Source: Gammaproteobacteria bacterium | Lineage (GTDB): Bacteria > Pseudomonadota > Gammaproteobacteria > SZUA-229 | Direction of reading: 5' to 3' | NCBI GenBank assembly: GCA_030148865.1 | Contig: JASBSR010000019.1 | Span: 1-64,000, forward strand | DNA: 64,000 nucleotides | Shown here: positions 4,376-38,733 of the stretch, piece after piece | Layout: every line of letters starts with the position of its first letter | How positions within the stretch are numbered: position 1 is the stretch's first letter | Made by a program: the position numbers and the translations under genes | The notes under the pieces: generated by a model | Told to the model about the DNA's origin: nothing | The model's database searches: none | Seen by the model: only the letters and a program-made list of their open reading frames with translations

Positions 4376-6643
4376 CTACAATGACGCCTCAAACAGCTCA
4401 ATCGGCAGTGGTCTGCCAAACAGATACCCCTGGTAGTGAGCGCATCCATTGTCGAGAAGAAATTGTCGATTCTCTTCCGTCTCGACCCCTTCGGCAATGA
4501 CGGAAATGCCGAGGCTTTGTGCCATCACAATGATGGTGCGCACAATCACTTTGTCGTTGTTATCGGTAGCAATATCCCGCACGAACGACTGGTCAATCTT
4601 GAGTTGATTCAGGGGCAGTCGTTTGAGATATTGTAGTGATGAATAACCGGTGCCGAAATCATCCATTGAAAACTGGATGCCAATTTTGGTTAATGTCGTC
4701 ATGGTTACGATGGTGTCTTCAATGTTTTCCAGTAACATGCTTTCAGTCAGTTCTAGCTTGAGCAGCGTCGGGTTGATAGCATAGTACTGCACGACAGCTT
4801 GCACCTGTGCTACGAAATCAGCTTGACGCAATTGTTTTGCGCTGATGTTTACTGACAGAATCAGGTCACGGGTTAGCGGATTTTGCTGCCATGTCTTGAG
4901 CTGTGCGCAGGCTGTTTCCAGCACCCAAAGGCCTATGTGCAGGATCAACCCGGTTTCTTCAGCCAGCGGAATGAATTGTGCAGGCGATATTATTCCCCGT
5001 TCTGGGTGAGCCCAGCGTATCAATGCTTCTGCACCCAATGGTCGATGCGTGCTATCCACCTGGATCTGGTAATGCAGTTGAAACTGTTGCTTGTCAATCG
5101 CTTTGTGTAATTCTGCTTCCAGTGCCGCACGGGCCGTGATACTGGCTTGCATTTCTGGATCAAAAAATCGCAAGGTATTACGTCCCGATTTTTTGGCCTG
5201 ATACATGGCGATGTCAGCCTGTTTAAGCAGTTCATTGGTTGTTTGCGAGTTGCTATTGAACAGGACGGCGCCAATGCTGCATGAGTAGTGATGCTTGTTG
5301 GTGACGAGCTGGCAAGGTTGATTGATGGCAGCAAGAATTTTCTCGCCAACGATTTCAGTATATGCTGCCGCTTCAAGCGCATGTTGACTCAGGTTTTCCA
5401 GAATCACCACAAATTCATCGCCCCCCAAACGAGATATTGTGTCGTCTTCGCGTACACAGGTGGTCAGACGTAACGCAACCTGTTGCAAGAGTAGATCGCC
5501 AACTTGATGACCGAGTGTATCATTGAGGGTCTTGAAATTATCCAGATCAATAAGCAGCAATGCACCTTTTCTGCCGATGCGTGAACTAGATGCTAATGCT
5601 TGCTGGAGCCGATTCATAAGCAGGCGCCGGTTAGGCAGATTAGTGAGTGGATCGTAGAACGCCAGACTATTGATTCTTGCTTCGGAATTTTTGCGTTCAG
5701 TGAAATCTTGAACTATGCCAATACCACCTGTTACATTTCCACTGCCATCACGGGAAGCTGTGCAGGTCAAATCTAGCCACAAGTCTGCATTGCAAAGCGA
5801 GCTGGAAAATGGCCCTTCATGATGGACTACTTGTATATCAAAAGCCTTTCTCAAAATCGGTAATAAAGTCTGGTCGTTGAGAAGCTTCATATCCAGCTCG
5901 ATAATGTGTTTAGTTGTGCTTTGTAGAATGTCAGCCAAATGATTGTTGCAATAGGTGATAATGAGATCGGTATTGTAGTGAAAAATTCCAACCGGCGAAT
6001 AGTTCAACAGCAAGCGATGGTGCTCCTCACTTGCCCTGACTAGCTCCTTGTGCTTAATTGCCTCCAGACGCAAGGTGATATTGTCGGAAATGTTCCGGTT
6101 GATGAGCCGCAAACTCATGATCATAAAGACGAGATACAGCATTACTGCCATGCCAAGAATTACCAGCAATCTGTCTCCAGAAACAAACAGACGAATCGTG
6201 ATTGGTGTAATAATCGATACTGAAAATACAAGGGCACTGATCAGGTCGGCTGAAAATGAAATCACGCCTCCAGCCGTCATTCCGGCAAGCATAAGAATCA
6301 GAAATACCTGGTGTTGAGGGTTGTTTTCCGGGAACAGCAGCCAACCAGCGGCTCCCCACACCAGAGATGAAATCAGAATAACCAGACGAAAACGCACCAG
6401 TCGGGTATGGATGACGACAGCCTCATCCGATGGGTGACGTTGATAGCTGATAATCTGGCTGGCACGTAAAATTGATGCCAGTACCATGAAGGAATACCAG
6501 GTCAGGAGTACCTGGGGGGAAATCACTTCTCGCTGTACATAAGCAAGAGTTGTGGCGATGAGTATGCTAGCTAGCAGCGATATATTGCTGATGGAAAGCA
6601 TCTGCCGCAGCTGCGCAGATTGTGTGGCCAACCTTTTGTCCAA
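4376..6643 (-). CDS. membrane PAS-GGDEF-EAL c-di-GMP enzyme under riboswitch control
   Basis: The 755-residue protein begins with about six membrane helices (residues 15-185), then a PAS domain (about 208-315), GGDEF (about 330-490) and EAL (about 500-750). The cyclase site SRLGGDEF is intact. An inhibitory RxxD site (REDD) sits exactly five residues before GGDEF. EAL residues are also intact: AEALIRW, SVNIS, LELTES, SMDDFGTGYSS, KIDQSF and AEGVE. The protein could therefore make and break c-di-GMP, with PAS or membrane signals setting the balance. The start is TTG 6643, with AGGT about 8 bp upstream; ATG 6601 is an alternative. Its roughly 350-nt leader holds a c-di-GMP-I riboswitch, giving a plausible feedback loop. 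It stands alone and converges with the ArnT-like gene. Confidence 0.9.
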   Translation of the reverse strand: MDKRLATQSAQLRQMLSISNISLLASILIATTLAYVQREVISPQVLLTWYSFMVLASILRASQIISYQRHPSDEAVVIHTRLVRFRLVILISSLVWGAAGWLLFPENNPQHQVFLILMLAGMTAGGVISFSADLISALVFSVSIITPITIRLFVSGDRLLVILGMAVMLYLVFMIMSLRLINRNISDNITLRLEAIKHKELVRASEEHHRLLLNYSPVGIFHYNTDLIITYCNNHLADILQSTTKHIIELDMKLLNDQTLLPILRKAFDIQVVHHEGPFSSSLCNADLWLDLTCTASRDGSGNVTGGIGIVQDFTERKNSEARINSLAFYDPLTNLPNRRLLMNRLQQALASSSRIGRKGALLLIDLDNFKTLNDTLGHQVGDLLLQQVALRLTTCVREDDTISRLGGDEFVVILENLSQHALEAAAYTEIVGEKILAAINQPCQLVTNKHHYSCSIGAVLFNSNSQTTNELLKQADIAMYQAKKSGRNTLRFFDPEMQASITARAALEAELHKAIDKQQFQLHYQIQVDSTHRPLGAEALIRWAHPERGIISPAQFIPLAEETGLILHIGLWVLETACAQLKTWQQNPLTRDLILSVNISAKQLRQADFVAQVQAVVQYYAINPTLLKLELTESMLLENIEDTIVTMTTLTKIGIQFSMDDFGTGYSSLQYLKRLPLNQLKIDQSFVRDIATDNNDKVIVRTIIVMAQSLGISVIAEGVETEENRQFLLDNGCAHYQGYLFGRPLPIELFEASL

Positions 6644-6920
6644 TTTTCTACCTATAAACAGCGGTAAAACGTGGCCACCATGGCCTGAGTGGAGCTAAAA
6701 CGGCAGCTGTGAAATTATCTGATTCGCTCATCATTTGTCTGCACGGTGCCTTTATAATTGCTCGCTATGTAGCGATATCTTTATATGCACAGGAAGTACG
6801 CGTGCAACTAATCTTGTTTGATAACAGACGTCCAGTCAGGATTATTAAGGATGAAACGGATCATGCAACGACAAAATGGGAAAAGTGGGCCGGAAGAATA
6901 CAGGTGTGGGGTGAGAAACC
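6644..6920 (-). other. long leader between riboswitch and GGDEF-EAL gene
   Basis: These 277 bases lie between the aptamer and the TTG start. Just after the aptamer is an inverted repeat (ACAGGT at 6900-6905 and ACCTGT at 6918-6923), which could be part of the expression platform, but no U-tract follows it. A 28-codon open frame (6734 down to the TAG at 6648-6650) ends four bases before the TTG start and could couple translation. It lacks a clear ribosome site and may be chance. Plus-strand open frames through this stretch look spurious. Confidence 0.4.
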
Positions 6921-7000
6921 TGTGTTGCAATCCCGCTGCCATAGTTGCCATTAGGTCGGAGACTTTGCGTCCATACTTTTCAATATGTTTGCCTGGTGTC
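6921..7000 (-). promoter_or_regulatory. cyclic di-GMP-I (GEMM-I) riboswitch aptamer
   Basis: Read on the minus strand, the segment shows the conserved blocks of class I c-di-GMP riboswitches in order. They are AGGCAAAC (6994-6987), a P2 hairpin closed by a GAAA tetraloop, GGACGCAAAG (6972-6963), CCGACCTAA (6959-6951), and the P3 strand GGCAGCGGGATTGC (6940-6927). Spacing matches the Vibrio Vc2 aptamer as I remember it. A promoter lies directly upstream and a GGDEF-EAL gene follows on the same strand, a classic regulon member. Ligand class is assigned by family resemblance. Whether binding turns expression on or off cannot be read, because no clear terminator follows. Confidence 0.9.
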
Positions 7001-7005
7001 GAATG

Positions 7006-7033
7006 ATACTAGTCTATTATTGAAACAAGTCAA
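7006..7033 (-). promoter_or_regulatory. sigma70-type promoter of the riboswitch transcript
   Basis: On the minus strand TTGACT (7033-7028) is followed after 16 bp by TAGTAT (7011-7006). The predicted start falls around 6998-7001, at the 5' edge of the aptamer. This position agrees with the riboswitch being the very start of the mRNA. Confidence 0.7.
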
Positions 7034-37497: not shown

Positions 37498-38733
37498 ATG
37501 TCACTAAAAGAAGTTAAAGTCCGAATACCCGATATTGAACTGGGCATGTATGTCACGCGTCTGGACAGGCCGTGGCTGGAAACGCCGTTTTTATTACAGG
37601 GCTTCCATATTAAAACCCAGGAAGATATCGATGAATTAATGAAATACTGTGATTACGTTTTCGTTGATGTTGAACTGAGCAAAACTATCGAAAAAAAGGC
37701 CCCTGAGTTCAGTGCCATTGTGCAGTCAGACGATGCAGAAAAGCGACTTCTCATCAATGGCAGACCCAAAATATATAAAGATGAGACCACGCGCGAAGCC
37801 GAGCTGATTACTGCGCGGGAAAGTCATCAGGCACTGAGCAATGTTGCTGAAGATATCATGAAGCATATCTCCAGCAATAAAAAGCTCAATCTACCCATGT
37901 TGCAGCAGGCGATCAATCCGATGGTAGACAGCATCATCCGTAATCCCGATGCTTTTTCCTGGTTGACCTGGATGAAAACCAGGGATGCGTATACCTATAA
38001 CCATTCTGTGAGTGCATCAGTATGGGCGACAGCGTTTGGCCGCCACCTGGGGCTTCCGAAACAGGATCTGCAATCACTTGCCGTGGGTGCGTTGTTGTTT
38101 GATGTCGGCAAAATGAAATTACCTGACAAATTAATTAACAATACAAAACGCTATAACCAGTATGAATTTAAACTTGTAAAACAGCATGTCGATTATAGTG
38201 TTGAAATTGTAAGTTCGATAGATGGCATCAGTGATGCAGTGATTGATATGGTGAAAAACCATCATGAACGTCACAACGGAAACGGTTACCCGAAAGGTCT
38301 GAAAGGAGATGCGATTTCCATTTTTGGAAAAATTGCCGGAATTGTAGATTGCTACGATGCGATTATATCTGAAAGACCATTTGCTACGCCTTTATCACCA
38401 CATGAAGCTGTAAAAAAGTTGTATGAATGGCGCAATATTGATTTTCAGGCGGAACTGGTCGAGCAGTTTATCCAGGTCGTAGGTATTTACCCAGTGGGTA
38501 CTATTGTGGAATTAAGCGACGGCCAGATTGGCGTCATCGTAGCACAGCACAGAATGTGGCGTCTCAGGCCGCAGGTCATGGTGCTGCTAGATGAGAACAA
38601 GAAATCCTGTCAGTCATTCGATGTCGTCAATCTATTTACTAAAACCAAAGATGCTAACGGCTATTCGCTTGATATTGTGAAAAGCGTAGATCCTGGCGTA
38701 TATGGAATTGACCCGAAACAGTTTTACCTGTAG
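37498..38733 (+). CDS. DUF3391/HD-GYP protein with altered HD motif
   Basis: The 411-residue protein has an N-terminal DUF3391 domain (VRIPDIELGMYVTRLDRPWLETPF) and an HD-GYP domain (about 160-340). The GYP part is intact (NHHERHNGNGYPKGLKG) and other metal-site residues are visible (YNHSVSAS, KQHVDYS, GIVDCYDAI). The central HD motif, normally LHDIGK, reads LFDVGK, so a conserved metal-binding His is Phe. HD-GYP proteins hydrolyse c-di-GMP; loss of this His suggests weakened or regulatory function. The EAL gene starts 8 bp after it, so the two act together. A weak -35/-10 (TTGATC, 17 bp, TACTAG) lies only a few bases from the ATG. Confidence 0.88.
   Translation: MSLKEVKVRIPDIELGMYVTRLDRPWLETPFLLQGFHIKTQEDIDELMKYCDYVFVDVELSKTIEKKAPEFSAIVQSDDAEKRLLINGRPKIYKDETTREAELITARESHQALSNVAEDIMKHISSNKKLNLPMLQQAINPMVDSIIRNPDAFSWLTWMKTRDAYTYNHSVSASVWATAFGRHLGLPKQDLQSLAVGALLFDVGKMKLPDKLINNTKRYNQYEFKLVKQHVDYSVEIVSSIDGISDAVIDMVKNHHERHNGNGYPKGLKGDAISIFGKIAGIVDCYDAIISERPFATPLSPHEAVKKLYEWRNIDFQAELVEQFIQVVGIYPVGTIVELSDGQIGVIVAQHRMWRLRPQVMVLLDENKKSCQSFDVVNLFTKTKDANGYSLDIVKSVDPGVYGIDPKQFYL

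Follow-up and report, generated by a model that had tools for sequence, protein, structure and literature searches.

A c-di-GMP-I riboswitch aptamer was found on the minus strand of the window (the whole 64-kb stretch of DNA that was analysed) upstream of a gene for a membrane PAS-GGDEF-EAL protein, and the riboswitch probably controls this gene. The aptamer matches its family over the full length, and the protein retains its catalytic and inhibitory motifs. In the proposed mechanism, the riboswitch would be transcribed from its own promoter, sense c-di-GMP and set the expression of the downstream gene, giving a feedback loop at the level of the transcript.

To identify the RNA, which an earlier note had named as a c-di-GMP-I riboswitch on the minus strand, the sequence was searched with the Rfam covariance models (cmscan). 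RF01051 (c-di-GMP-I) matched at 7003−6923 (minus strand) with 62.7 bits (gathering threshold 35), and the match was complete (model positions 1−87 of 87), with E-values of 6.8e-10 for the 64-kb window and 9.8e-12 for the region 6500−7420. No other Rfam family was found in that region down to an E-value of 1. All the conserved blocks listed in the note, namely AGGCAAAC, the GAAA loop, GGACGCAAAG, CCTAA and GGCAGCGGGATTGC, were present in order on the minus strand, and its span of 6921−7033 was correct as given. The GAAA tetraloop lies on P2, and the conserved GCAAAG, CUAA and UAUG elements were also all present. By the covariance model, the RNA at 7003−6923 is a bona fide c-di-GMP-I aptamer, which would be expected to bind the ligand. 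In common with the Vc2 riboswitch of V. cholerae and the c-di-GMP-I (GEMM-I, RF01051) family, it has the full-length match, the GAAA loop with the receptor elements and a G at the selectivity position; it differs in its short 5' side without an obvious long P1, and in that its regulatory output is not recognisable. In our own alignment, the selectivity position was placed at what we take to be the equivalent of Vc2 G20.

The next gene on the strand of the aptamer is an ORF at 6643−4376 encoding 755 aa from a TTG start. Both the GGDEF domain (168.9 bits, E 9.5e-50) and the EAL domain (242.9 bits, E 3.7e-72) scored above the Pfam cut-off, in agreement with the GGDEF-EAL gene of the earlier note, and a weak PAS domain fell below it. 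Hydrophobic segments were located within residues 15−177, and the REDD, GGDEF and EAL motifs lie at residues 398, 407 and 539, respectively. The RxxD inhibitory site, described in the note as intact, reads REDD-TISRL-GGDEF at residues 398−411, placing REDD five residues ahead of GGDEF. The nearest solved structure was MorA (PDB 4rnh, E 6.2e-113), and the alignment spans both domains. From this alignment and a motif search, the catalytic signatures GGDEF, EAL, DDFGTGYS, KIDQSFV and EGVE were found to be intact, and the EAL catalytic segments agree with those of MorA by eye. The N-terminal region differs from that of MorA, and the RxxD site aligns to SQDD in MorA. With REDD before GGDEF and the EAL signatures aligned with MorA, cyclase activity, phosphodiesterase activity and product inhibition are each possible by sequence, and the protein is predicted to make and/or break c-di-GMP. 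That two layers of feedback, one through the RNA and one through RxxD, may act on one enzyme is a reasonable inference.

Relatives of the GGDEF-EAL part reached approximately 69−70% identity in Gallionella, with other Nitrosomonadales also among the best, and for the N-terminal region the best family relatives showed only about 30% identity. The genomes searched yielded no close relative over the full length. A Gallionella contig carries a c-di-GMP-I-GGC riboswitch (RF03167; L027, 188−268, plus strand), and a related GGDEF-EAL gene lies approximately 4.7 kb downstream of it.

The riboswitch had also been assigned its own promoter. The putative sigma-70 promoter TTGACT-16-TAGTAT was located at 7033−7006 (minus strand) and matches 9 of 12 consensus bases. 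Three promoter-like sites this good were found in 950 bp compared to 1.7 expected; the match is therefore near chance frequency, and the sequence of the site proves little by itself. Its position was compared with those in 108 riboswitches of the taxonomic class, using promoter-like pairs scoring 9 or more. In 13 of the 25 cases reaching that score, the −10-like box clustered 12−17 nt before the aptamer GGC, and the box of the present putative promoter, ending 12 nt upstream of GGC, falls inside the cluster. A promoter belonging to the riboswitch and directly upstream of it is thus plausible by position. Transcription would be predicted to start at approximately 6999−7000, some 7 nt ahead of the conserved core.

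The genome (2.68 Mb, 44 contigs) was found to hold about 35 GGDEF and 24 EAL domains, four PilZ matches and a single copy of RF01051. Chance placement would seldom put the sole copy before a gene for a c-di-GMP enzyme. Within the window, a second c-di-GMP locus is formed by a gene pair at 37498−40037 (plus strand), comprising a DUF3391/HD-GYP-like gene (37498−38733) in which FD replaces the usual HD, followed directly by a GGDEF-EAL gene (38742−40037) with a degenerate GGDEF (GNSEF) and an intact EAL. A Y1 transposase gene (IS200-like, RAYT-type) lies at 81−926 (plus strand).

At the family level, RF01051 matches were found in 10 of 54 genomes, the others preceding different kinds of genes, and linkage of the riboswitch to a GGDEF-EAL gene was found in none of the 53 relatives; the order-level search covered the same 54 genomes. 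One family match (L010) is longer and odd. At L006, L007 and L008, from two genera, the riboswitch precedes a conserved gene pair of which the second encodes a small GTPase (MglA-like by eye), and the three leaders share CTTCCTC. Five further loci (L012, L013, L015, L017 and L018; in L013 at 180−264, minus strand) carry, past the aptamer, a CTTCTGG-like element able to base-pair with the aptamer 3' end (CCAGA).

In the class sample, RF01051 was present in 63 of 370 genomes. At least 3 of the 107 other class sites (L152, L192 and L132) precede a GGDEF/EAL gene, a lower bound because some loci are incomplete, the comparison was limited to ORFs whose start lay within 600 nt and the window's own domains served as queries. 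These three share with the present locus the placement of a sensor RNA before a gene for the metabolism of its own ligand. At L152, a cyclase gene (GGEEF) starts 75 nt after the riboswitch, and at L192 and L132 degenerate GGDEF-EAL genes start 28−117 nt after it, whereas here both the GGDEF and the EAL domain appear to be active and the gene starts after a leader of 279 nt. The products of L132 and L192 are membrane proteins that resemble each other; their GGDEF and EAL domains are degenerate, and the proteins are perhaps c-di-GMP receptors rather than enzymes.

The leader between aptamer and gene (6922−6644, minus strand) compares with a class median of 97 nt, although leaders as long occur at some other class sites; neither the leader nor the TTG start of the gene figures in the note. 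The claim that the riboswitch regulates a gene acting on its own ligand was supported by co-location (same strand, next gene), but not by a recognisable expression platform, and the long leader counted against it. No intrinsic terminator was found on the minus strand of the leader by two scans, and the leader contained no further Rfam element at an E-value of 1 and no repeats. Given the distance from the aptamer to the start codon, it is less easy to envisage translational control through masking of the ribosome site. A 28-codon ORF read from the leader (MMSESDNFTAAVLAPLRPWWPRFTAVYR, 6734−6648, minus strand) ends 4 nt before the TTG start; it has a weak ribosome site and may be a chance ORF. 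The motif CACTTTTCCC is common to this leader and that of L002, with one apparent compensatory change (by eye, in these two sequences only).

Immediately after the aptamer, a C-rich and G-poor segment was identified at 6917−6838 (minus strand), where C minus G equals 20 in 80 nt. This value is reached by 0.05% of the 80-mers of the 64-kb window, which served as background, and a segment this strong occurs in 1.1% of random 280-nt stretches; the latter figure is uncorrected, the test having been chosen after the sequence was read. Unstructured, C-rich RNA is where Rho loads (PMC10907184), and the segment is thus a candidate loading (rut) region that may support a Rho-dependent output. The rarity of the segment and the blank minus-strand terminator scans favour an output of the Rho type. 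On this view, transcripts would end early within the long leader, probably through Rho acting at the C-rich segment, whose accessibility would change when ligand binds; the switch could be ON or OFF. Both outputs are available to the c-di-GMP-I fold by strand exchange (PMC9262584), and the class I switches of C. difficile are mostly OFF (PMC6200980). The specific step in which the aptamer gates a rut segment, and thereby exerts feedback on a GGDEF-EAL enzyme with both activities, is postulated as a speculative one, with the odds against it, and no description of Rho-dependent termination for c-di-GMP riboswitches was found in the portion of the open full-text literature covered. Tandem GGDEF-EAL proteins are often phosphodiesterases. 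As both catalytic signatures are also intact here, the simplest homeostatic version would be an ON switch, with high c-di-GMP increasing the amount of a phosphodiesterase.

A doubtful alternative is that the output relies on intrinsic termination, the mechanism of the Geobacter pilM riboswitch (PMC9262584). Without ligand, the 3' half of the aptamer would pair with the leader and transcription would stop; ligand would prevent this, giving an ON switch. The pairings required (CGACCUAAUGG with CCAUUUUGUCG, and GGC with GCC) are exactly those adopted when the transcript to 6864 is folded without constraint; this fold breaks the aptamer with 9 outer pairs and is approximately 10−11 kcal/mol (10.5) more stable than the one in which the aptamer is enforced. 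The family relative L013 also has a clear terminator (GCCAGA...TCTGG followed by a T run) that shares the aptamer 3' end, and there the CTTCTGG-like element likely serves as an ON-switch platform. Against this, the energy gap was equalled by 170 of 1000 shuffled flanks (17%) and is within chance, and the stem lacks a T run of standard strength. The competing fold was accordingly rejected as an expression platform, as was an intrinsic terminator of the pilM or Cd1 type, neither scan having shown a G+C stem with a U run on the minus strand.

It is unlikely that the aptamer, while real, is uncoupled from the gene, which would then be served by a promoter of its own in the leader and leave the riboswitch without a target or with only a short RNA to act on, as the leftover of a rearrangement. 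The length of the leader and the absence of the linkage from all family relatives would fit such a history, as would a second, weak promoter-like site in the leader (CAGACA-16-GATAAT, 6741−6714), and in C. difficile some c-di-GMP-I riboswitches have no detectable downstream gene (PMC6200980). However, the aptamer is intact, has no second copy in the genome and adjoins a gene of the same pathway; equally long leaders exist in the class, and the alternative promoter is not better than chance. Sensing of 3',3'-cGAMP in place of c-di-GMP, as by the Geobacter GEMM-Ib riboswitches, is very improbable, for although the same fold binds cGAMP after a few changes (PMC8835794; PMC9262584), G20 of Vc2 is a selectivity position (PMC9262584) and its equivalent here is G by our alignment.

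Riboswitch control of the PAS-GGDEF-EAL gene is favoured by the full RF01051 match, the promoter position, the same-strand gene with intact motifs and the class sites before GGDEF/EAL genes. Counted against it were the leader length, the chance-level alternative fold, the missing linkage in the relatives and the promoter-like site at 6741−6714.

The placement of c-di-GMP-I riboswitches before genes of c-di-GMP synthesis and degradation was part of the discovery of the ligand (Sudarsan et al. 2008, as reviewed in PMC7266159). Feedback of this kind is already known, and the locus is a real, functional-looking but ordinary example. A published case of a riboswitch combined with an intact RxxD site on one enzyme was not found in the part of the open literature covered, which is no proof of absence. 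The locus adds an instance rather than a new principle, unless its output proves to be Rho-dependent. It does offer a clean case, in which a genome with a single c-di-GMP-I riboswitch uses it, judging by position, on one of about 35 c-di-GMP enzyme genes, and it would be a handy test of whether feedback at the RNA level and at the protein level (RxxD) act on one enzyme.
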